Virus record (IMG/VR): IMGVR_UViG_3300037882_002953
Location: 1 to 38,858 of that record
DNA from: a virus
Direction: 5' to 3' (one strand)
Length of the DNA: 38,858 nucleotides
Every line of letters begins with the position of its first letter. The first letter of the stretch is position 1. Below the pieces are notes generated by a model that saw nothing but the letters and a program-made list of their open reading frames with translations, ran no database searches and was not told the DNA's origin. This document shows, in pieces, positions 1,820 through 32,619 of this stretch. Position numbers and translations under genes: made by a program.

Positions 1820-3481
1820 TTGACCTCCTCGCACCTCTTCCATAGCCTCAACCGCAAGGCCGGGCAAGCCCAGACCAACACGGCGCTGTGGGCGGAGCGT
1901 GCGCAGGCAATCTACGACGGGTGCCAGTCCAAGCAGCGGGCCCTCTTAGACTCGGTCGAGAACGGCTACAAGTACCTGGGCCTCCGGTGCCCTCGTCGTG
2001 CTGGCAAGACCTACGGCTTCGCATCCCTGGCCCTTCGCCACGGGGAGAAGCACCCGAACTCCCGCATCCTGATTGTCTCGCTCACGCTGAAGTCGGTACG
2101 AGACAACTACTGGTCCGGGGCCCCGGGCGGCATCTTCGCTCTGAACGAGAAGTACGGGCTTGGGCTCAAGTTCAATCACACTTACAATACCTGGCAGCAC
2201 GAGAATGGGTCCCGTGGCCAGTTAGTCGGCGCCGAGACCCTGGCCGACATCGAGAAGATTCGTGGCTCGCTCGCCGAGGCCGATATCGCGATTGTCGATG
2301 AGTGCAAGTCGTTCGCCCCCGAGCTGTTCCTTCAGCTCCTACGCGACGTCCTCCTCCCCGGCCTCATGACCCGCGACGGGGCTCTGGCAGTGGGCGGCAC
2401 CCCTGGTTCTATCCCCATGGGGATGTTCTACGAGGCCACCTGCCCCACGGCCCGTACCGAGTACACCTGCCCCAAGTGCGAGAAGACGCACCCTACCTGC
2501 ATCCCGGTAGGCGACGAGGCCAGCGAGCTGTACGCCTGTCCCGAGCTGGAGAAGGCGGCCCTCTGGCGCCTCCACTCCTGGACCATCCAGGACAACCCGC
2601 GCTCGGACGCCTGGAAGCGCGCGCTCCAGGAGAAGCTCCGCAACCAGTGGCCCGATGACCATCCGCCCTGGCGCCGTGAGTACCTGGGCGAGTGGGTCAC
2701 TGACGCCACGGACCTGGTCTACCACTGGGCCAACTACAAGGACCGTCAGGACTACGTCACCTGGCGCCCTGAGCGCACACGAAAGAATCCGTCGGGTCTT
2801 CCCGTAGAACTTGGCCCCTGGCGATATGTCCTAGGGATTGACCTTGGCTACGTGGATGACACGGCCCTTGTACTCTGCGCGTACTCCGAGGTCAGCAAAG
2901 AGCTGCGCCACGTGTATGACTTCAAGCAGCCGGGGATGACCATCGATGCCTTCATGGACGAGGTCTTCTCGGTCATTGAGCGCTTCGGGCGCCCCGACTC
3001 CATTGTGGCCGATACGGCCGGTGGCGGCTCCAAGATGCTCATTGAGTCGATGAACCAACGCTACGGCCTGGGAATCGAGCCCGCGAAGAAGACGGAGAAG
3101 ATGGACCACATTGAGATGGTCAACTCCGACTTCTCCCTGGGGCGCATCAAAATCATCCCGGGCAGTGACCTGGCCATCGAGCTGGGTGGGCTCCAGTGGG
3201 ACCTCTCTCGCGAGTCCAAGGCGATTCTGTCGCGCACGGGCCGCCTCAAGGAGGACCCGCAGTGCCCCAACCACCTTTGCGACGCCCTGCTCTACCTGCA
3301 CCGCTACTCCTATCACCATTGGTCCTCTCCCCCGCCCATGCGCACGACGCCAGGCACCCCGGAGTGGCTGCGGGAGATGGAGGCGGCGGAGCTGGAGAAG
3401 GCTATGGCGAAGCGGACCGAAGCTAAGAAGGACCCGCACGGGCTCCGTCGTTACGAGAAAGGCCTCCCTTGGACCCGTTAA
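1820..3481 (+). CDS. terL: Large terminase subunit (ATPase and nuclease)
   Basis: 553 residues from a TTG start two bases after the previous stop. The protein pumps DNA into the prohead and cuts it. The ATPase domain shows a Walker A-like loop CPRRAGKTYG (57-66) and a Walker B IAIVDE (D160, E161). The RNase H-like nuclease domain has its acidic residues in the expected order: D341 in VLGIDLG, D398 in SIVADTAGGG and D488 in HLCDALLYLH. Between the domains C217, C220, C227 and C240 are spaced like a zinc-binding knuckle. The length is normal for the family. The tail is charged and Lys-rich. An upstream in-frame start is unlikely because it would overlap the preceding gene. Confidence 0.93.
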   Translation: MTSSHLFHSLNRKAGQAQTNTALWAERAQAIYDGCQSKQRALLDSVENGYKYLGLRCPRRAGKTYGFASLALRHGEKHPNSRILIVSLTLKSVRDNYWSGAPGGIFALNEKYGLGLKFNHTYNTWQHENGSRGQLVGAETLADIEKIRGSLAEADIAIVDECKSFAPELFLQLLRDVLLPGLMTRDGALAVGGTPGSIPMGMFYEATCPTARTEYTCPKCEKTHPTCIPVGDEASELYACPELEKAALWRLHSWTIQDNPRSDAWKRALQEKLRNQWPDDHPPWRREYLGEWVTDATDLVYHWANYKDRQDYVTWRPERTRKNPSGLPVELGPWRYVLGIDLGYVDDTALVLCAYSEVSKELRHVYDFKQPGMTIDAFMDEVFSVIERFGRPDSIVADTAGGGSKMLIESMNQRYGLGIEPAKKTEKMDHIEMVNSDFSLGRIKIIPGSDLAIELGGLQWDLSRESKAILSRTGRLKEDPQCPNHLCDALLYLHRYSYHHWSSPPPMRTTPGTPEWLREMEAAELEKAMAKRTEAKKDPHGLRRYEKGLPWTR

Positions 3482-3483
3482 AC

Positions 3484-3726
3484 ATGACCCCCGAGCAGAT
3501 TGAGGCCATCCTCATGGTTCTTCGCGAGCAGGGGGTGGCCAAGTTCGAGGGCCTGGGCTTCGCCGTGGAGTTCCGCACGGACCTGGAGGTGCCCAAGCAG
3601 GAGACGGCCGAGGAGGCCATCCGCAGCATCGCCAATGAGGAGAGGCGCCAGGCCAAGCCGGGCCTCTTCCACAATCCCATGCTCTGGCCGGGTGGGGCGC
3701 CCCCTAGCTTTGACGGAGAAGACTAA
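3484..3726 (+). CDS. Small protein between terminase and portal
   Basis: 80 residues from ATG at 3484, two bases after the terminase stop. Its last base is shared with the portal start (TAATG). It begins with a short helical, acidic segment (TPEQIEAILMVLREQGV), then a strand-like segment (KFEGLGFAVEF), then a charged helix and a Pro/Gly-rich end. The family is not recognised. Small genes at this position in podoviruses are often assembly factors, but nothing here proves that. Confidence 0.6.
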   Translation: MTPEQIEAILMVLREQGVAKFEGLGFAVEFRTDLEVPKQETAEEAIRSIANEERRQAKPGLFHNPMLWPGGAPPSFDGED

Positions 3727-5705
3727 TGTGGAATCCAGGCAACGAGGGTAACAACCCCGAGGAGCAGCCGCACCACATTGGCTGGTGGGAGAGGGTTACC
3801 AAGCACGAATATCTCCCGGCTGAAGAGGTCGAGAAGATTCGGGCCAACTCCCTCATTGCGACGGCGCGCAACCTAGAGAACCTACAGCGAGAGGTCCATG
3901 AGCAGAACCTCTTCTCGGCCCAGCTCTACTCCAACCGTGAGCTGGCGGCCTTCGACTGGGGCACCAACAACCTCTATCGCGCCTCGCTGGCTCCTGTCTC
4001 TCGCACGGGTGAGAACCTTGTGCTTATGGTCGTGGATACGCTGGTCTCCCAGGTGGGCAAGAACCGCCCCAAGGCCAAGCCACAGACCCGCGGAGCCTCC
4101 TGGAAGCTCCGGCAGGCCGCGAAGCGCCTGGACAAATTCCTCTACGGAGAATTCGTCCGGAACCGGGTGTGGGACATTGGAAAGCGAGTGTTCCGCGATG
4201 GGTGTGTCTTCTCCTTCGGTGCCGCGTACCCGTACATGGACGACGATCGCCTGCGTGTTGAGCGCGTCTTTCCAGATGAAATTCTTGTTGACCAGATGGA
4301 AGTGGCTGCTTGCGGTCGCGCCCGTCATTGGTATCGCCGCCGTGTCCTTCCTAAAGAGGTAGCCGCGGTTATGTTCGGGTGCTCGATTGAGGACCTGGAG
4401 ACTGAGATTGACTCGTCGCCCCAATATCTGGAGTGGCGCAAGGTCGGTAAGAGTTATTGTGTTGTGGTCGAGGGCTGGCAATGCGCGCGGGGCGACAAGC
4501 CCGGTGTTTATGTGGCCGCCACCCATAATAAAATCCTCAAGTCCAAGCCCTACACCCTGGAAGAGGGGCCCTTTGTCACCTGGCAGTACAGCGATCCCCT
4601 CTCCGGCTTCTTCTCCCCGTCCGCGGTGGAGCAGGCAATCCCGTATCAGATTCGTCTGAACGAGATTAACGACGTGATTCGCGACGCCCAGGACCTCATG
4701 GGGCGCCCGCGACTCTTAATTCATGAGGGCTCACGCGTCAATCCGTTAGAGATTGACAATATGGTGGGACGCTTTGTAAAATACACGGGAGTCAAGCCCG
4801 AAGCGGTCACTTGGCCGGCCATTAACGCTGAGATTTACAACGAGCGCGATCGGCTGGTCCGGGTTTGCCTGGAGCAGTTTGGTCTCTCGCAGCTCTCTAG
4901 CAAGCAGGCCCTCCCGGCCCAGGCCCGTCTAGACTCCGCCCCGGCCCTGAACATGGCCACGGAGATTCAGGACGGCCGACTGGGTGACTTGGTCCAGCGA
5001 TACGAGCGCTTCTACCTGAATCTGGCCGAGCAGATGATTCGGGTGGTCCAGGCCTCGGGCGAGAACCCCAAGACCACGTGGGTCTCGGGTGGGCGCAAGG
5101 GTATGGTGGAGGAAATCTGCTGGGATGAGATTGACCTCGACGAGAACGCCTACGTTCTTCAGCTCGAAGCGGCTTCGTCCTTCTCCCAAACCCCGGCTGC
5201 CATTCGCGACGACCTGGAGAAGCAGCTTGCCACGGGCCTCATCTCTCCCGAGACCTATCGGCTAGAACTGTGTGACCCAGACTCCGAGTCTGAGCTGGTA
5301 CTTGCCGCTGCCGCTGCCGATGACATTCGCCGCGTGATTGACCTCCTGGAAGAGGGGGAGTGGGAAGACCCCGAGCCCATCCAGGACCTGGTCAATGGTG
5401 TCCAGACCGTCTCGCTCGCGGCCCTACACCTGAAGAAATACAAGGACGTGCCGGACACGGTGAAGATTAACTTCGCCGACTGGCTCACGGCGGCGCGCAA
5501 TATCCTGGCCATTGGCGAGGAGACGCCCCCGAACATGGACCCGGCCGAGATGGTTCCCGGTCTCGCGACCCCGCCTCCGCTGGGCGGCCCCGGCGGGGAC
5601 CCGATGATGGGTGGCGCACCGCCCCCGACCTTCGCTGGGGCTCCGGGCCCGGCAGCAATTCCCATCCCGGAATCTCTGGGCTTGGGCGGACGAGTTAGAG
5701 GATAA
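3726..5705 (+). CDS. Portal protein
   Basis: 659 residues, a typical size for the twelve-subunit head vertex of podoviruses through which DNA enters and leaves. The call rests on size, position directly after the terminase, and visible features. The N-terminal region is helical and charged. The mixed core includes GENLVLMVVDTLVSQVGKNRP and VFRDGCVFSFGAAYPYM. A long stem-type helix region (PYQIRLNEINDVIRDAQDLMGRPR) is followed by a Gln-rich crown-like segment near FGLSQLSSKQALPAQ. The C-terminal 90 residues are Pro/Gly-rich and probably disordered. The ATG overlaps the preceding stop, and the scaffold gene follows after six bases. Confidence 0.88.
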   Translation: MWNPGNEGNNPEEQPHHIGWWERVTKHEYLPAEEVEKIRANSLIATARNLENLQREVHEQNLFSAQLYSNRELAAFDWGTNNLYRASLAPVSRTGENLVLMVVDTLVSQVGKNRPKAKPQTRGASWKLRQAAKRLDKFLYGEFVRNRVWDIGKRVFRDGCVFSFGAAYPYMDDDRLRVERVFPDEILVDQMEVAACGRARHWYRRRVLPKEVAAVMFGCSIEDLETEIDSSPQYLEWRKVGKSYCVVVEGWQCARGDKPGVYVAATHNKILKSKPYTLEEGPFVTWQYSDPLSGFFSPSAVEQAIPYQIRLNEINDVIRDAQDLMGRPRLLIHEGSRVNPLEIDNMVGRFVKYTGVKPEAVTWPAINAEIYNERDRLVRVCLEQFGLSQLSSKQALPAQARLDSAPALNMATEIQDGRLGDLVQRYERFYLNLAEQMIRVVQASGENPKTTWVSGGRKGMVEEICWDEIDLDENAYVLQLEAASSFSQTPAAIRDDLEKQLATGLISPETYRLELCDPDSESELVLAAAAADDIRRVIDLLEEGEWEDPEPIQDLVNGVQTVSLAALHLKKYKDVPDTVKINFADWLTAARNILAIGEETPPNMDPAEMVPGLATPPPLGGPGGDPMMGGAPPPTFAGAPGPAAIPIPESLGLGGRVRG

Positions 5706-6743: not shown

Positions 6744-7991
6744 ATGCCATCCGCTACTACCATGGCCGCACTGGCCAAAATGTTCAAGACGGTCTATCAC
6801 AACAAGGACCTCACCAACCAGGCGAAGCGCAAGACGACCGCCTACGACCTCGTCAGCAAGTATGACGACTTCGTGGGTAAGGAGCTTGTCTTTCCCTTCA
6901 ACTACAACCTCCCGGTCGGCGTCTCCCCGGACTTCGCGACCGCGCAGGCCAATCCCACGGCCTCTGGCTTCGATAACTGGGTCATGACGACCCGCAAGAC
7001 GCTGTACGGCTTCCTTACCATCGACGCGCTGGCGATGCAGGCGGCCCGTGCAGACATCGGCGCGTTCCTTCGCACCAAGCAGAAGGAGACGAATGAGCTG
7101 CTCTCCTACATGAAGATGGTCCTCGGTGGCCATGCATTCTGGGGCGACGGCGCGGGCGACCTTGCGCAGATTATCTCGGTGACGGGCGCCAACCCCATCA
7201 CGTCCTTCACGGTCTCGCCGCGCTCGGTGGTCAAGATTCACAAGAATCAGCGCCTCCAGTTCAATGCGACGCGTACGGGCGCGGCCGGTGGCCTCCTGGC
7301 GGCAGAGTACCGTGTTGACGGCGTTAACCGTCAGACGGGTGTTGTTACGGTCACTCGCGTGGCTGGCACGACCCCGGACCCGGCGGCCAACCAGTACGTC
7401 TACCAGAAGGGCAGCTACGACGCGTACCCACTCGGCGTCTCGGCCTTCATCCCGGCGGCTGACCCGGGCACGGGCACGGTCCCGGCCACCCTCCTCGGCA
7501 TGACGCGCACGGATGACGTGGCGATGAAGTCGGGCTGGCGTGTGCCGTGGCAGGGCTCCATCGAGGAGTCGGCCAAGTTCCTCTGCGCCCAGATGGGTCA
7601 ATACTTCGATAGCACGACCAGCGCCCTCTGGCTGTCGCGCTACAACTGGTTCCGCCTGGAGCAGGAGTTGGCGGCGCAGGGTCGCGTGATTCGTGACCAG
7701 AAGGCTTCGGCCATCTTTGGCACCTCCGCGATTCTGCTCCAAACCCCGGAAGGCGACATCCCGGTCGTCTCCGACTCGTACCTGGGTGATGATGTGGCCT
7801 TCCTCATCGACATGGCGTGTATCGAGACCCATCACCTCGGTGGCCTCATCCACACCGTGGACGATGACGGCAACTCGTTGCTCCGTCAGACGGCCGATGA
7901 CGGCGTGGAAATCCGGTTCCGCTCCTGGAGCGAGAACATCATCCAGCGCCCGTTCAAGTGCGGTCGCTTCCCCATCCCGGCAGCGGTCTAA
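6744..7991 (+). CDS. Major capsid protein
   Basis: 415 residues, probably of the HK97 fold. The evidence is position after the scaffold, size, even high-expression-type codon use with C or G in third positions, and a mixed alpha/beta composition. Segments such as KTTAYDLVSKYDDFVGKELV (start), TNELLSYMKMVLGG (spine-like helix) and a C-terminal strand region ending KCGRFPIPAAV fit a capsid subunit. An AAGGA ribosome binding site lies at the end of the scaffold gene. A long open frame on the opposite strand is a by-product of the codon bias and is not a gene. Confidence 0.85.
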   Translation: MPSATTMAALAKMFKTVYHNKDLTNQAKRKTTAYDLVSKYDDFVGKELVFPFNYNLPVGVSPDFATAQANPTASGFDNWVMTTRKTLYGFLTIDALAMQAARADIGAFLRTKQKETNELLSYMKMVLGGHAFWGDGAGDLAQIISVTGANPITSFTVSPRSVVKIHKNQRLQFNATRTGAAGGLLAAEYRVDGVNRQTGVVTVTRVAGTTPDPAANQYVYQKGSYDAYPLGVSAFIPAADPGTGTVPATLLGMTRTDDVAMKSGWRVPWQGSIEESAKFLCAQMGQYFDSTTSALWLSRYNWFRLEQELAAQGRVIRDQKASAIFGTSAILLQTPEGDIPVVSDSYLGDDVAFLIDMACIETHHLGGLIHTVDDDGNSLLRQTADDGVEIRFRSWSENIIQRPFKCGRFPIPAAV

Positions 7992-13500: not shown

Positions 13501-13602
13501 AGCTATCCGCAAGACAGCGAGGAGGCTTCGTGGAACACCGACACGTTTGGGTCCGAGACATTCGGGGCAGGGACTTTTGGAGATAACGAAAGTGACGAGT
13601 AA
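10561..13602 (+). CDS. Tail nozzle (tubular B-type) protein
   Basis: 1013 residues and beta-rich throughout. The N-terminal block (VKGVDVNTRARLVQAPALLE followed by a charged AEKRAG segment) resembles the start of nozzle or stabilisation proteins of short-tailed phages, where a similar early motif defines genes and offsets on a ring. Further features are several WxxxHW-type strands, the segment FDAWAHWDV near residue 885, and an acidic C terminus. The size matches the larger members of this class, and it is the largest gene in the tail section. The last 11 bases overlap the next gene. Confidence 0.65.
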   Translation: MPLIYETAAVPVVKGVDVNTRARLVQAPALLEAQNTRFTRGSGAEKRAGHVGERVRGQDPLPEGVTLPRMQAVPSWEPYFTGVKGLPASYLFGWGPVIDTLRVGDTAFETSPHPDAGLLFGALTRDDEVVGWNGHQLFSRSSGQLASSSAGSAVMPHLRALPIAKTRDAQENPDLADNGRLRVVTWVNEGEAFYAVYSSQTGSAIVPPRLVGGVGVIAARVLPVGGWFHIILSATNDTLRRYSFHEGSPLVMHQASLGTAISGWYDAHKLSETAWGVVANHNGLEFRVRWYEADGSGSLAFNPFEHTPGTQVITVALAAHPEGTSFCVAWRESGAGNFVKALTVYAGGSSFEAPCGQIDILERAVAVAPKWVRGDSVGTPDVYDVYWDDSPDVFGDPRTTVSIARTLNNNVSFTQTRWGLQLASQAFRVGDRTFVWGAYASQLQSTWLLLDESVEPVGHAHYGVAAVADFTDDPVSLSSMNWSGAEVPQHRTVYHGALGYRVRVSTDDPEAVGVNKAAVYTEPSVSHLAMDFLPPLRSAQANRCAYVAGAQVWSYDGQELVEAGFHIAPDVVTSASADVTGDLVVDGIYTYRVDLCYRNAQNEEVRSHSFFTEPVTVPSNDKVRVRIYTGPVRKEGAYYLVFRNESNGTAWYLINSRDPSSPLFRPVDKTVRYVDLVDDGITTPNDTGLISRENYPGSILGFFAPIAAPACEIISAGLDRVWLAGGELPPGAVLPSRLFETIDTPAWNPLLIQQVDRGAAPITAIGFVSDMAAIFRRNSTYIMEGQGPDNVGQGTFSPPRLAYADTGAVGPEGLALVGAGLIFQSPAGFQILTPGSGLSNIGLPVAPLSNFRVGAAVVVGADHEVRFYGKDGRSLIYNYQFDAWAHWDVAAVGATLTPSGVVLVHPEGAFWVETPGTYLDDGRAYLHRVRFAWLRGGELMDFQRIRRIGALGEALPDNAHTVHVEVFYDEQDFAAEGFDISYPQDSEEASWNTDTFGSETFGAGTFGDNESDE

Positions 13603-14044
13603 GAAGCGGTGGTTTTTGCCTGGTTACCTCTGGGCCCTTCCCCACACCCTGGTTGGCCTACTGCTCTGCCTTGTGTATCGGGCGCACGCGTTTAGCTGGC
13701 ATGAGGGTGTATTAACCTGCCTCGGGGGTCTTGACAATGACGGGGGAACCCGCATCTGGGGGCGCCCCGGGGCCCAGACCCACGGCTGGCTGGTCATCTA
13801 CGCGGACGAGAGGCAACGGTCGCGCACCGACCTCCGGGTCCATGAGTACCAGCACGTGTGGCAGGGGTTCCTCGGCGGCCCGCTCTACATGCTGGCCTAC
13901 GGCTTCACCTTCCTCTGGAACTACCTGGGGCACCGGGAGCTGGGCTGGAAGGCCGCCTACTACAAGATACCATTTGAGATTCAGGCGTACGACCGGGGCA
14001 ACCACGCCAGGCCCGGAGATTGGGGATTCAGCAATGTCTCGTAA
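13592..14044 (+). CDS. Membrane-anchored HExxH putative metallopeptidase
   Basis: 150 residues from a GTG at 13592, inside the end of the nozzle gene, with GGAG nine bases upstream. A positively charged start (SKKR) leads into one hydrophobic segment (about 10-30). The motif HEYQH (84-88) is the zinc-binding and catalytic HExxH signature, and E129 in KIPFEIQAYDRG, 41 residues downstream, could be the third ligand. Between them lies an aromatic, hydrophobic region (GGPLYMLAYGFTFLWNYLG) that may be a second membrane segment. A small membrane-bound zinc peptidase is the best reading. Substrates are unknown. It is an odd gene to find in a tail module. Activity is inferred, not shown. Confidence 0.6.
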   Translation: MTSKKRWFLPGYLWALPHTLVGLLLCLVYRAHAFSWHEGVLTCLGGLDNDGGTRIWGRPGAQTHGWLVIYADERQRSRTDLRVHEYQHVWQGFLGGPLYMLAYGFTFLWNYLGHRELGWKAAYYKIPFEIQAYDRGNHARPGDWGFSNVS

Positions 14045-16451
14045 GCACTTAGTCGGCCTCGTATTCGGTTTCTGTCTGGCCCTGGCCTGCGCGGCCGGGC
14101 AGATTGGCCCTACCGGGGACATCTTCTCTGTCAACACCTCGGCCCCCCTCGCGGGCGGCAGCGCTCAGGGTGACGTCACCCTCTCGCTCGCCCCTTGCGG
14201 CACGAACGAGATATACAAGTGGAACGGGTCGGCCTGGGTGTGTGCGGCCGATGCGACAGGTGGCGGTATCTCGGGTCTCACGGCTACCCGCATCCCGGTG
14301 GCTACGAGCGGCACCACCATTGCGGACTCCGTGATGACGGAGACCTCTTACGCGAGCAACCCCTACGGCATCTCAATCAGCCGGACCTCTTCGGCAGTAG
14401 CCCACTCAGGAGTCAGTCCACGCGTGATTCTGGCCGAAGAGTTGGGCTCGTTCGACACGACTAGTGCGGGCGGGCTTGTCATGGGCGTGAAGACTACCGC
14501 GACTGCCAGTCGGTCGGCCGGGTCCAATGACCTGACCAACGTGGCTGTCTACGCTACCGCCGCAAACGGCCAGTTTAACTATTCGTTCCTCGGAATCTCT
14601 GGGGTCTCTGAAAACGCCGGCCCTATTACGGAGGCCGGAGTTCGCGTCTTCTCACTCGCGGGAGACGGCCTGATTACCTCTGGCGTTCCCTATAGCACTG
14701 CCGCGAAGACGGTCAACGCGGCGTCCCGCCAGCGCGCGGTCGCGGGTGACTGGGGCATCGAGGTTCGGGCGGATGATATCGGATTAACCGATAACTGCAC
14801 CAACGGCCAGGTGCTCAAGTACGACGACGGCTCCGGTGGCACCCTCCACACAGGCGAATGGGACTGCGCGGCGGATAGCAGCAACGTGTACACGGCCGGT
14901 TCCCCGCTGACCCTCGCCAGTGGCCAGTTCACCCTGGGCCTCTGCTCGGCCAACCAAATCCTCCAGATGGACGTTACCGGGACCAACTGGGGTTGTATGG
15001 CGGTCCCCGGTGGCGGTGGCATCTCCGGCCTCACCACGGGGACCCTCCCCATCGCAACCAGCGCCACCACTATTGGCAACTCCCTGCTCACGTTTGCCAC
15101 GGGCACGTTCACCGCCACGGGCAACCTGGCGATTGCGGGTGCGGGTAACGACCTCACCGTGGCTGACGTGGCTCTAATTAACGGTAACCTGAACGCCGAG
15201 GCCCAGGTCCAGCTAGACAACGTCGGTGACATCACGTGGTCTTCGACGGGAACGGCGGGCGGCGCGGTAGATGTCGGACTAGCACGCGGCGTGGCGGGAC
15301 AGCTCGTAATCAACGACGGCGACGGCATCGCGACAGCCGACCTTCGCGACGGACTTTCGCGTACCTGGTCAGCAAGCAACGCGGGCGTTGCGTTCAAGAT
15401 GATCAATACGGGCCGCGTCGAGTGGTCTTCCGCGGCGACATTTACAACGACGGATGCCGCAATTGGTCGCAACGCGGCGGGCGTCCTCGAAGTCAATAGT
15501 GGTACGGCGGCGACCTACCGCGACATCATCGCCCGGACGCACTTCGGCGGCGTGGCGGCGAGTACGAGCTTCAAGTCGCCGAGCACTGGACGTATTGAGT
15601 GGTCGTCAACGACTGCGCACACGGGCGCGTCGGACACGGGACTTGAACGCAGCGCGGCCGGTTCGCTGGTCATCAACGACGGTGCGGGCGTCGCGGTAGC
15701 GGACATGCGCGACCTCAATGCGCGCTCGGTCTTTTCGAATATCGCCGCTGGTACAGCCTTCAAGGCGGTCTCGACGGGGCGTCTGGAGTGGTCCTCCACG
15801 ACGCTCATCGGCGGCGCGTCGGACGTCGGTATCGAGCGCAGCGCGGCGGGAGCACTCGTCGTCAACGACGGAGCGGGCATCGCGACAGCTGACCTTCGCG
15901 ATATCACAACGCGGACGCACTTCGGAGACAACGCGGGCGTGGTCTTCAAGACAGTACTCGGCGGGCAGATTCAGTGGTCGTCGACGACTGCGATTGCTGG
16001 CGCTGCGACGGTGGGCATTGGCACGAACGGCGCGAACCGGCTCGAAGTCAACAACGGCACCGCTGGCACATTCGCCAACCTCATCGCACGCGACATCACG
16101 GCTAACCAGAACCTCACGGTCTCTGGCGCGGTCTCGGGGGGTTTCGACGTCAAGGGCAACGTACGCGACACCACGACGGCGCCCACGGTCACTGCTTGCG
16201 GCACGGGTGCTTCCTCCTCTGTCGGAAAAAACGGATTCACCATCACGATCGGAAGTACCAACCCGACAACCACATGCACGGTGACGTTCCCGTCTGCCTT
16301 TAGCGCGGCTCCAAGCTGCGTCGTGAGTCCGCGCGACGGAACGAAGGCCGGACTGATTACCTATACGACCTCAACCGCCGCGTGGTCGATCACTGCGGCG
16401 TCGGCAACTATTCACAGCACGGTCTGGGACGTTATCTGTATTGGCCACTAA
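14034..16451 (+). CDS. Tail-fibre-like repeat protein with Sec-type signal peptide
   Basis: 805 residues from the ATG at 14034, with GGGGA as ribosome binding site and an 11-base overlap with the preceding gene. The N terminus has a basic start (SRKH), a hydrophobic core and an ALACA cleavage-like site near residue 20. This looks like a Sec signal peptide. A lipobox is poor because position -3 is Ala. The body has short fibre motifs such as GISGLTATRIPVATSGTTIA, which recurs in altered form near residue 330, then five 59-63 residue repeats, then a Cys- and Thr-rich terminal domain ending HSTVWDVICIGH. Fibre-like receptor binding is the likely role. A secreted start is unexpected for a virion part. 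Confidence 0.65.
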   Translation: MSRKHLVGLVFGFCLALACAAGQIGPTGDIFSVNTSAPLAGGSAQGDVTLSLAPCGTNEIYKWNGSAWVCAADATGGGISGLTATRIPVATSGTTIADSVMTETSYASNPYGISISRTSSAVAHSGVSPRVILAEELGSFDTTSAGGLVMGVKTTATASRSAGSNDLTNVAVYATAANGQFNYSFLGISGVSENAGPITEAGVRVFSLAGDGLITSGVPYSTAAKTVNAASRQRAVAGDWGIEVRADDIGLTDNCTNGQVLKYDDGSGGTLHTGEWDCAADSSNVYTAGSPLTLASGQFTLGLCSANQILQMDVTGTNWGCMAVPGGGGISGLTTGTLPIATSATTIGNSLLTFATGTFTATGNLAIAGAGNDLTVADVALINGNLNAEAQVQLDNVGDITWSSTGTAGGAVDVGLARGVAGQLVINDGDGIATADLRDGLSRTWSASNAGVAFKMINTGRVEWSSAATFTTTDAAIGRNAAGVLEVNSGTAATYRDIIARTHFGGVAASTSFKSPSTGRIEWSSTTAHTGASDTGLERSAAGSLVINDGAGVAVADMRDLNARSVFSNIAAGTAFKAVSTGRLEWSSTTLIGGASDVGIERSAAGALVVNDGAGIATADLRDITTRTHFGDNAGVVFKTVLGGQIQWSSTTAIAGAATVGIGTNGANRLEVNNGTAGTFANLIARDITANQNLTVSGAVSGGFDVKGNVRDTTTAPTVTACGTGASSSVGKNGFTITIGSTNPTTTCTVTFPSAFSAAPSCVVSPRDGTKAGLITYTTSTAAWSITAASATIHSTVWDVICIGH
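15197..16080 (+). repeat. Five tandem ~60-residue repeats in the fibre gene
   Basis: The fibre gene carries five consecutive units of about 180-190 bases. Each has the pattern TGRxEWSSTT, then a GASDxGxERSAAG segment, then LVxNDGxGxAxADxRD. The Trp codons of the units lie near 15237, 15421, 15601, 15790 and 15970. Units three and four are the most alike, and the outer units have drifted. Such repeats build a periodic beta shaft and can expand or contract by recombination. Confidence 0.75.
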
Positions 16452-16456
16452 ACCTG

Positions 16457-16465
16457 TGGTATAGT
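16457..16465 (+). promoter_or_regulatory. Extended -10 promoter inside the late unit
   Basis: TGGTATAGT is a full extended -10 element (TGn followed by TATAGT). No good -35 box is present at 17 bases, but extended -10 promoters do not need one. The expected start of transcription falls at about 16472, on or next to the ATG of the following gene. The transcript would therefore have almost no leader. Confidence 0.5.
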
Positions 16466-16471
16466 GCGCAC

Positions 16472-16759
16472 ATGACCAATATCATTCGTCTCGCCGCCGG
16501 TCTCATCCTTTCCATCACCCCCTTCGCCTGTAAGCAGAATAACCGCACCATCGAGGTCCTCAAGGAGGAGGCACCCCTCCTAGTGTGCAAGGACTTAGGC
16601 GGTGACCGGGCCGATTGCACCTACGAGAAGCTCCGCGTCTACTGCGCACCTAGCGAGGCCGAGGGCACCATTCTCTGCCGCCCCCGGGTGCTCGTGAACA
16701 TCCCGAAGGCGCCCGAAGCCCCGGCACCCGAAGCCCCCCGTAACCCGCCCAAGGAGTAG
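16472..16759 (+). CDS. Small exported Cys-containing protein, possible lipoprotein
   Basis: 95 residues. The start MTNIIRLAAGLILSITPFAC is a short signal sequence ending at a Cys. The residues before the Cys (PFA) deviate from the standard lipobox, so lipid attachment is uncertain. The mature part has four more Cys, which suggests disulfides outside the cytoplasm. The C terminus is a Pro/Ala-rich tail (KAPEAPAPEAP) of the kind used to cross the periplasm. There is no Shine-Dalgarno sequence before the ATG, and an extended -10 element ends six bases upstream. The next gene's ribosome binding site (AAGGAG) is in this gene's end. It might be a spanin-like, exclusion or fibre-associated protein. 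Confidence 0.6.
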   Translation: MTNIIRLAAGLILSITPFACKQNNRTIEVLKEEAPLLVCKDLGGDRADCTYEKLRVYCAPSEAEGTILCRPRVLVNIPKAPEAPAPEAPRNPPKE

Positions 16760-24357: not shown

Positions 24358-24546
24358 GTGGTAAGCACTATTCTTACAATCCTCATGGATATTGGCCTGG
24401 GCGGGATGGCCTACAAGTTGGTCCGCTCCCTGGAGGCTAATCAGAAGGTCATGACTTCGGTCCTGGCAGCCCTAAGCGTGCGCGTGGAAGCCCTGGAGCG
24501 GAAGACAGGCGGGGTCGAACCTCTAACCAAGCTGGTGTTGCCGTAG
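24358..24546 (+). CDS. Small membrane protein, holin or lysis accessory candidate
   Basis: 62 residues from a GTG with AGAGGG upstream. The N-terminal 22 residues (VSTILTILMDIGLGGMAYKL) are hydrophobic enough for one membrane pass. A coiled-coil-like helix follows (LAALSVRVEALERKTGG). The stop overlaps the GTG of the i-spanin gene, so the two are translated together. A single-pass holin, antiholin or lysis regulator is likely from context. The other holin candidate is at 25715-25921. Confidence 0.5.
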   Translation: MVSTILTILMDIGLGGMAYKLVRSLEANQKVMTSVLAALSVRVEALERKTGGVEPLTKLVLP

Positions 24547-24842
24547 TGCTCGGCACTCTAGTTGCCGTCCTGGCTGGCGCCGGCACAGTCCTTGCTCTTG
24601 GCGCGGCGATTTGGTACTTTTTCCGTAAGGCGGCCACCGCGGAGTCGAATGCTTCCACGATGGAGGCGGGAGTAGCGGAGGGCAAGGAGCGGGTGGATAG
24701 CCTTGAGTCCGCCGCCATCGCCGTGGAAATCCAGGAACGAAAGCAGGAAGCCAGTGTTAAGCAGGACGTTATTGACCGGGTTGATGTTGAGCGGGCTCGC
24801 AGCATGCTCAGGGACGCCTTCAACAAGGGTGGTTCGAATTGA
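24546..24842 (+). CDS. Inner-membrane spanin (Rz-like)
   Basis: 98 residues from a GTG. One N-terminal transmembrane helix (about 5-26) is followed by a charged, helical periplasmic domain with coiled-coil heptads (VDSLESAAIAVEIQERKQEA). This is the layout of the inner-membrane subunit of two-component spanins, which fuse inner and outer membranes at lysis. The 3' 89 bases encode the start of the o-spanin in another frame, the embedded arrangement known from Rz/Rz1 pairs. Confidence 0.7.
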   Translation: MLGTLVAVLAGAGTVLALGAAIWYFFRKAATAESNASTMEAGVAEGKERVDSLESAAIAVEIQERKQEASVKQDVIDRVDVERARSMLRDAFNKGGSN

Positions 24843-25113
24843 ACCCACGCCGTGCAAGTTCGCGGCCTGGCCCGAGGACCCCGAGGTATTCATCTTTGAC
24901 ACCCTGCCCTCGGGCTCCGTGTGCCCCCCTGACGCGGTGTGTCTAGACGTACCGAGCGCCGTCAACATCGCCACCTGGGCCGAGCAGATTGAGCGCATGC
25001 ACACGGCGCTGCTCACCTGCAAGGCCGTGGTCTTCTACAAGCCCATCACCGATAGCCTCGGCGAGTGGCAGCAGCGGGAGACCGAGAAAATTGGCGCTCC
25101 AGCGACTGACTAA
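24754..25113 (+). CDS. Outer-membrane lipoprotein spanin (Rz1-like)
   Basis: 119 residues starting with GTG at 24754, inside the i-spanin gene, with CAGGAAG five bases upstream. The signal sequence ends in a perfect lipobox LSGLAAC (Cys18), so the mature protein is a lipoprotein. The mature part begins with a short Ser/Thr/Pro-rich region, has three further Cys, and ends with a helix (ITDSLGEWQQRETEK). It is longer than lambda Rz1 but fits the o-spanin pattern and partner arrangement. This pair is the main evidence for a Gram-negative host. Confidence 0.7.
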   Translation: MLSRTLLTGLMLSGLAACSGTPSTRVVRIEPTPCKFAAWPEDPEVFIFDTLPSGSVCPPDAVCLDVPSAVNIATWAEQIERMHTALLTCKAVVFYKPITDSLGEWQQRETEKIGAPATD

Positions 25114-31552: not shown

Positions 31553-31787
31553 ACTCGCCGTAGGTGTCCGGGTCCAGGCGCTCGGGCAGCTCCACGGTTA
31601 GGGCGAGGTCCCGGGGGATGGTGTCGATGAACCACTTGTCGTCCCGCTGGTAGGGGAGGCCGTAGATGGTCCGGTCCCTTAGCTTCCAGTAGACCGCGCG
31701 TGTGGCAGCCAAGTCCTTCAGGGAGGCCTCGTTGTACCGCCTCTTAAGCATGTCGCTTAACCAGCCGTAATCAAATGACGATGCCAT
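31542..31787 (-). CDS. Small protein, tandem paralogue
   Basis: 81 residues from the ATG at 31787, with AGGAGG upstream. The frame extends farther but would overlap the peptidase gene. A helical N-terminal half (YGWLSDMLKRRYNEASLKDL) is joined to the domain YGLPYQRDDKWFIDTIPRDL, shared with the next gene, and to the ending DTYGEYGL. The family is not recognised. Duplication and retention of both copies suggests a useful, perhaps variable, binding role. Confidence 0.6.
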   Translation of the reverse strand: MASSFDYGWLSDMLKRRYNEASLKDLAATRAVYWKLRDRTIYGLPYQRDDKWFIDTIPRDLALTVELPERLDPDTYGEYGL

Positions 31788-32193
31788 ACCAGCCTCCTCG
31801 TGGGCCCTCCCAGCGGGCCAAGATTTCGTCCGTTGTGTAGGTGAGTACCAGCTCGTTGTCCGCCGAGTCAGCAACCAAAACCCGCTGTCCGATAGCCCCG
31901 ATGGCGGCCACCCAGTGCTCCCAGTTGTCCACGGGCAGAATCATGGGTTGGCCCCGATTAAGGTGGAGCCAGAGCGAGGCAAAGGCGGCGTGGGCGTCGC
32001 GGAACTTAACTGGGTGCCCCCAGCCTGGGTTGATAGACCGGATGGCTTTGAGTAAGCCGGCCTGGCTAGTCCCATCAGTTTTCTGGCGAGCCAGCTTTCC
32101 TAGCTCGTCCTCGGACCGGACCACCCCGATGGCGGCCAATGCGTTGTGCAAGGCCGCCGGGCCACAGCTACTCTGATTTGATTGGAACCGCAT
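31771..32193 (-). CDS. C39-like papain-fold cysteine peptidase
   Basis: 140 residues. The start QSSCGPAALHNALAAIGV has the Q/N-x-x-C-G-P-A core of C39 peptidases, with C10 as nucleophile and Q4 or Q7 for the oxyanion hole. H93 in NWEHWVAAIGA and D109 in VLVADSAD complete the triad in the right order and spacing. The family usually cuts double-glycine leaders from peptides within ABC exporters. Here the domain is alone and cytoplasmic, with no transporter nearby. Substrates could be host or phage proteins. Its start overlaps the upstream HTH gene by 26 bases. Confidence 0.72.
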   Translation of the reverse strand: MRFQSNQSSCGPAALHNALAAIGVVRSEDELGKLARQKTDGTSQAGLLKAIRSINPGWGHPVKFRDAHAAFASLWLHLNRGQPMILPVDNWEHWVAAIGAIGQRVLVADSADNELVLTYTTDEILARWEGPRGGWYGIVI

Positions 32194-32533: not shown

Positions 32534-32545
32534 GGTTTCTCCTCG

Positions 32546-32619
32546 TAGGCCTAGTGGGGCTCGAACCCACACTTTGTCGCTTTTAAGGCGAGTTCCTCTA
32601 CCGATTGGGATACAGGCCC
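32546..32619 (-). tRNA. tRNA-like gene, anticodon UAA (Leu?)
   Basis: 74 bases on the minus strand fold as a cloverleaf. The acceptor stem is GGGCCTG/TAGGCCT with two G-T pairs. The D arm contains GG. The anticodon stem is TCGC/GCGA with loop CTTAAAA. The variable loop is five bases, and the T arm is GTGGG-TTCGAGC-CCCAC with a discriminator A. CCA is not encoded. The anticodon reads UAA, for Leu UUA codons, yet bacterial tRNA-Leu has a long variable arm that is missing here. The D stem has a mismatch. It may be an unusual or decaying tRNA. Confidence 0.75.

Follow-up and report, generated by a model that had tools for sequence, protein, structure and literature searches.

The stretch of DNA analysed here (the window) is one IMG/VR virus record, 38,858 bases in length, from an uncultured virus of bacteria, and its gene layout is podovirus-like, with genes for the terminase (1820-3481), the portal (3726-5705) and the capsid (6744-7991), a lysis region at about 24.5-26 kb and, on the opposite strand, a replication block encoding DNA polymerase A, a DnaB-like helicase, RecT and a PD-(D/E)XK nuclease. 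A small, free-standing peptidase C39-like protein is encoded inside this block (31771-32193), and a tRNA-Leu (TAA) gene is found on the minus strand at 32545-32619. Searches of GenBank phages and IMG/VR with the large gene upstream of the locus, the terminase, portal and capsid genes and the three genes described below identified no close relative of the phage, and gave weak matches to the terminase and the HExxH protein and nothing else.

The three genes, here called A, B and C, are adjacent on the plus strand at 13592-16759 and are tightly packed in the late rightward tail operon: A shares 11 bases with the gene upstream of it and another 11 with B; C begins 20 bases past B, and the following gene 2 bases past C. 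A preliminary description of this DNA had presented them as three envelope-directed genes located after a "nozzle" gene. Their place and adjacency are as described. As an exported protein, B has good support, C is a plausible candidate and A an uncertain one. Family searches gave no confirmation of the nozzle name. A strongly hydrophobic N-terminus is present in six of the 45 gene models of the window, namely A, B, C, the i-spanin, a holin-like gene and gene 1485, the start of which is doubtful. In addition, B and C contain 12 and 5 cysteines, respectively, compared with 0-1 in most other late proteins. None of the three products has a match in Pfam or NCBIfam.

Gene B and its signal-bearing fibre relatives

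Gene B (14034-16451, plus strand) encodes an 805-aa protein whose first 22 residues (MSRKHLVGLVFGFCLALACAAG; 14034-14099) comprise a basic n-region, a hydrophobic core and a cleavage site, as identified by a rule-based signal call. The site fits signal peptidase I (A-C-A), and the sequence LALAC also passes a PROSITE-type lipobox rule; cleavage by signal peptidase I and processing as a lipoprotein are thus predicted to be equally possible. Three Cys modules follow (CGTNEIYKWNGSAWVC, 14196-14243; CTNGQVLKYDDGSGGTLHTGEWDC, 14796-14867; CSANQILQMDVTGTNWGC, 14943-14996), then five repeats of about 60 aa each (xxWSST...D.G..R.AAG.L.VN.G....RD; 15225-16142) and a C-terminal domain with four Cys (16143-16448). 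With five copies of the A5 repeat, B belongs to a phage tail-fibre repeat family, and its initial reading as a repeat fibre with a Sec-like signal is borne out by these repeats and by the signal. A PDB sequence search returned no credible relative.

B-type repeats were detected on 27 IMG/VR contigs and at two loci in bacterial genomes (84,980 species, each represented by a single genome); since they are almost confined to viral contigs, they define a phage fibre family. Signal or signal-anchor N-termini were called in seven of the 27 viral relatives (L016, L018, L022, L029, L032, L040 and L045), and a signal-like N-terminus was likewise seen at a MAG locus (L050), with starts unresolved or incomplete in four of the signal-bearing relatives. 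The genes surrounding these fibres include an SU10-type capsid gene (L016), P22-type coat and SU10 adaptor genes (L018), a terminase gene (L022) and a gene matching a tail-fibre family (L045), which indicates that the loci are true phage modules.

Signals of this kind also occur in cultured phages. Orf35 of Xanthomonas phage PBR31 (L053, 24674-25483), which starts with MKKLIALFSLFCTSAFGA, and gp19 of Burkholderia phage BcepC6B (L057, 7001-8074), annotated as "tail fiber protein" and starting with MKKLIAILLAVPALALGA, each carry a signal and one Cys module. The two proteins are 52-55% identical, and their genes adjoin tail spike or fibre genes and holin genes; the PBR31 fibre is rare among bacterial genomes (1/369). 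The signal-bearing fibre is not discussed in the passages located in the PBR31 and BcepC6B papers, and no report of Sec-exported tail fibres was found in the open literature searched.

The presence of a signal goes along with that of spaced Cys pairs, a feature separate from the signal sequence. Such pairs were found in 15 of 18 signal-bearing proteins and in one of the 12 fibres that have no signal (p = 9e-5 counted per protein, 0.002 counted per contig); these figures compare small, partly related groups, picked after L016 and L018 had been seen and defined by the same simple hydropathy and motif rules that were used to call signals. L016, with a signal and no Cys pair, is an exception. This association points to an oxidising compartment. 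A contrast within one genome is provided by L019, where the fibre has neither a signal nor Cys pairs, while two of its neighbours do bear signals and contain 12 and 23 Cys. Other signal-bearing genes are also more frequent in signal-fibre loci (19/87) than near signal-free fibres (5/146; p = 2e-5), in a comparison where coding starts are uncertain on the GC-rich contigs and several relatives are incomplete.

The trio had been proposed as a grouping to look for in other phages. The exact trio was found only here, because no close relative of the phage was found in the collections searched; what recurs in unrelated phages is runs of consecutive signal-bearing genes around fibres (L018, L019, L022, L029, L040 and L045), with four such genes in L029, three in L045 and two each in L018 and L019. 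Several of the four in L029 (3501-8495) encode Cys-containing fibre-like proteins. In the phage tail module of L022 (7671-11533), the gene for a signal- or anchor-bearing fibre precedes those for two secreted proteases, an M10 matrixin (HEVGHALGLGH) and a trypsin-like one, and for a lipoprotein. A small signal-bearing family (T-x-TM...STVDQA), with no relative among GenBank phages, is encoded just downstream of the signal-bearing fibres of L045 (5913-6287) and L040 (5394-5795).

Export of B is well supported at the sequence level, because its signal and Cys pairs recur in viral relatives and in isolates and because signal-bearing genes cluster. Two other readings of B have to be weighed against this evidence. 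In other tailed phages the cytoplasm is where virion proteins assemble, and B, a fibre-family member encoded where a late operon has its fibre gene, could be an ordinary virion fibre made there, whose hydrophobic N-terminus is a trimer-anchoring tail plug that resembles a signal peptide. A segment that docks to the tail should be conserved, however, and the signal-like N-termini (a basic start, 10-13 hydrophobic residues and A-x-A or AQ) keep the grammar of signals while their sequence is not conserved between phages. As the Cys pairs are moreover missing from cytoplasmic fibres of the same family, we consider a plug distinctly unlikely.

Conversely, the preliminary description had reasoned that an exported protein is not expected to be a virion part. 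This does not follow, as other phages have signal-bearing fibres at the place where a fibre is normally encoded; the evidence for export is compatible with the presence of B in virions and does not show its absence. A related proposal casts B as a moron-like surface adhesin with no place in the virion; the infected cell would put it on its surface or shed it, and so block receptors or neighbours. Its signal and Cys pairs, its exported neighbours and the lysis-adjacent position of the PBR31 and BcepC6B genes would all fit such an adhesin. Yet the usual fibre slot is held by signal-bearing fibres, with no signal-free fibre recognised in the L018 stretch examined, and the late, overlapping gene order is ill-suited to lysogenic conversion, no integrase having been recognised in the subset of window genes searched. 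A pure surface adhesin hence appears fairly unlikely, if worth keeping in mind. More generally, the occurrence of similar fibres in unrelated phages suggests, for some phage fibres, either extracytoplasmic maturation or an action on the cell envelope.

Genes A and C

Gene A (13592-14044, plus strand) has a GTG start and encodes a 150-aa HExxH...E gluzincin-like protein with an N-terminal hydrophobic helix. Its HEYQH motif spans residues 84-88 (13841-13855), and Glu129 (13976-13978), located 45 residues past the first His, is the candidate third zinc ligand. The family came to light through a crAss-like protein, only distantly similar, and through a contig from the gut; an alignment then gave nine more loci. 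In the family alignment of 10 sequences, H84, E85, H88 and E129 are invariant, as expected of a gluzincin motif, and so are W14, L16, P17 and G22.

Database searches returned little for this family: Pfam gave nothing convincing for the relatives of A, no Pfam or NCBIfam model was found for the family, and A itself weakly matched a PHROG labelled "protease". A search of whole genomes for the PHROG family of A was silent even for the window and is thus uninformative. No credible relative was found by sequence in the PDB, and Foldseek gave no significant match there for the structural model of A (pLDDT 77). The model matches viral models, phage proteins of its own family, well and, in the PDB, weakly resembles 3c37, the VgrG2b effector domain (6h56) and BepA, at Z scores of 4.6-4.7; all are zinc peptidases.

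The N-terminal segment of A has a mean hydropathy of 1.55 over 19 residues, which is borderline for a transmembrane helix. It coincides with a conserved family motif (W-x-L-P....G) and is folded within the domain in the model, and may therefore be part of the core rather than an anchor. Of the membrane-anchored HExxH protein announced at first, the HEYQH motif is thus present, and the anchor is in doubt.

The relatives of A are mostly encoded in lysis cassettes. M15 endolysin genes are neighbours in L005 (4267-6042) and L006 and a holin gene in L007 (6745-8357), while in L008 (299-3575) the relative adjoins genes for a holin and a GH19-like enzyme, and in L012 (2375-4678) a gene for a DUF5675 protein with an Rz-like gene nearby. 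No recognised signal-bearing fibre gene adjoins these relatives. From this distribution, a lysis-related role at the envelope is our best guess for A, and through this gene a HExxH family that has no name is connected with the lysis cassettes of phages.

Gene C (16472-16759, plus strand) encodes a 95-aa protein with a predicted signal (MTNIIRLAAGLILSITPFAC), five Cys and a Pro-rich tail. Its lipobox, PFAC, fails the PROSITE-type rule, but non-consensus lipoboxes can work, and AWAC is found in phage spanins (PMC6139136). C is probably a lipoprotein with an unusual lipobox, and its export is plausible. No relatives of C were found, and its single-sequence model, all-beta and of low confidence (pLDDT 63), is not reliable enough to search by fold.

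C had been reported as an exported Cys protein with its own promoter. The signal and the five Cys are there, and so is an extended -10-like sequence before the gene (TGGTATAGT; 16457-16465, plus strand), but such sequences are not above chance in the window (two matches versus 0.75 expected, with at least two in 16 of 100 shuffles), and a transcript starting from this one would be nearly leaderless. It was consequently rejected as evidence for a separate promoter.

Small size, predicted export and a Pro-rich tail could also make C an extra outer-membrane spanin subunit, with A as an accessory lysis enzyme. Unusual lipoboxes do occur in phage spanins (PMC6139136), and the lysis cassettes around the relatives of A go in the same direction. 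However, C matches none of the spanin families of PHROG, diverse as spanins are, and the window already has an Rz-like i-spanin gene (24546-24842) overlapped by an o-spanin candidate with the lipobox LAAC and five Cys (24775-25113), so that a minimal lysis set would be complete without A and C. A spanin function for C is in our view quite improbable.

Alternatively, A and C could form a peptidase and partner pair, C being a Cys-rich inhibitor, a substrate or an immunity partner of A. Such pairs have been described: a Listeria phage-derived metzincin is paired with a TIMP-like lipoprotein (PMC8235301), and VgrG2b has an immunity partner (PMC6899460). The L022 fibre also lies near an exported metalloprotease and a lipoprotein. 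In the window, B stands between A and C, and C offers neither a relative nor a confident model to support the pairing, which makes it highly improbable.

A possible envelope-directed late cassette

Signals on B and C, Cys pairs that go with signals, fibre repeats, an HExxH...E motif and the lysis-cassette position of A relatives are features read directly from the sequences, and from them we infer export, disulfide formation, catalysis, the individual roles of A, B and C and their joint function. The reading that we tentatively prefer, and that could well turn out to be wrong, is that the trio forms an envelope-directed late cassette in which an exported fibre meets virions at lysis, A acts on the envelope and C blocks the receptor. 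The three genes would be read together with the late tail genes. B, as a member of a phage tail-fibre family, would leave the cytoplasm by the Sec route and form its disulfides beyond it, would wait in or on the envelope and would meet progeny particles at cell lysis, where it may join them as an adhesin or cover receptors on debris. As a gluzincin-type metallopeptidase, A might loosen the envelope near lysis or trim exported products. C could be a small lipoprotein that blocks the receptor as T5 Llp does, and by analogy superinfection exclusion fits as its role. Points against this reading are that the trio has no second example, that the lysis-cassette relatives of A have no recognised signal-bearing fibre as a neighbour, and that the window has its own spanin genes already.

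T4 fibres and the P22 tailspike can attach to particles in extracts, so export in itself does not bar B from the virion. Extended beyond this phage, the proposal would be that a widespread class of tailed phages builds fibres via the host Sec system, with disulfides formed outside the cytoplasm, and fits them at lysis in company with envelope proteases and lipoproteins; this generalisation is rather doubtful at present.

The current view is that tailed phages fold and assemble their adhesins in the cytoplasm. Fibre-family proteins that repeatedly carry Sec signals and Cys pairs, two of them in cultured phages, open the way to a direct test. If signal-bearing fibres join virions, phage assembly includes an extracytoplasmic step; if they stay off virions, the tail module of many phages contains an unrecognised set of envelope effectors.

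Comparison with known systems

The gene for T5 Llp adjoins that for the receptor-binding protein pb5, and Llp blocks the receptor from the periplasm (PMC9586334). C resembles Llp and Cor in that it is small, Cys-containing, predicted to be exported and encoded directly downstream of a fibre gene; in contrast to them, it has an atypical lipobox, and no sequence relative was found for it in our searches.

With VgrG2b (6h56) and M48-type peptidases (3c37, BepA), A shares HExxH and a Glu 45-48 residues on. In VgrG2b, the corresponding residues are H935, H939 and E983, with the Glu 48 residues on, and toxicity of the domain is restricted to the periplasm (PMC6899460). The fold match is weak (19% identity over 98 residues, Z only 4.7), and A differs from these enzymes in being a phage protein that stands on its own and has a conserved hydrophobic helix at its N-terminus. 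Clear homologues over the full length of A are the members of the uncharacterised HExxH family of crAss-like and other phages (cr125_1 gp058, L005-L013), whose genes, unlike A, are mostly located in lysis cassettes or by the portal gene, with no recognised exported fibre alongside.

Although the metalloprotease of L022 is a metzincin of family M10, unrelated to A, the tail module of this locus is like that of the window in that an exported metalloprotease and a lipoprotein accompany a signal- or anchor-bearing fibre. Similarly, BcepC6B gp19 and PBR31 orf35 have no sequence match to B beyond their architecture, and no gene-A-like neighbour was noted in the listed tail and lysis regions of the two phages; they nonetheless share with B a fibre-like character, a Sec-type signal, a CxxxxxxL...GxC Cys module and a late position by the tail and lysis genes.
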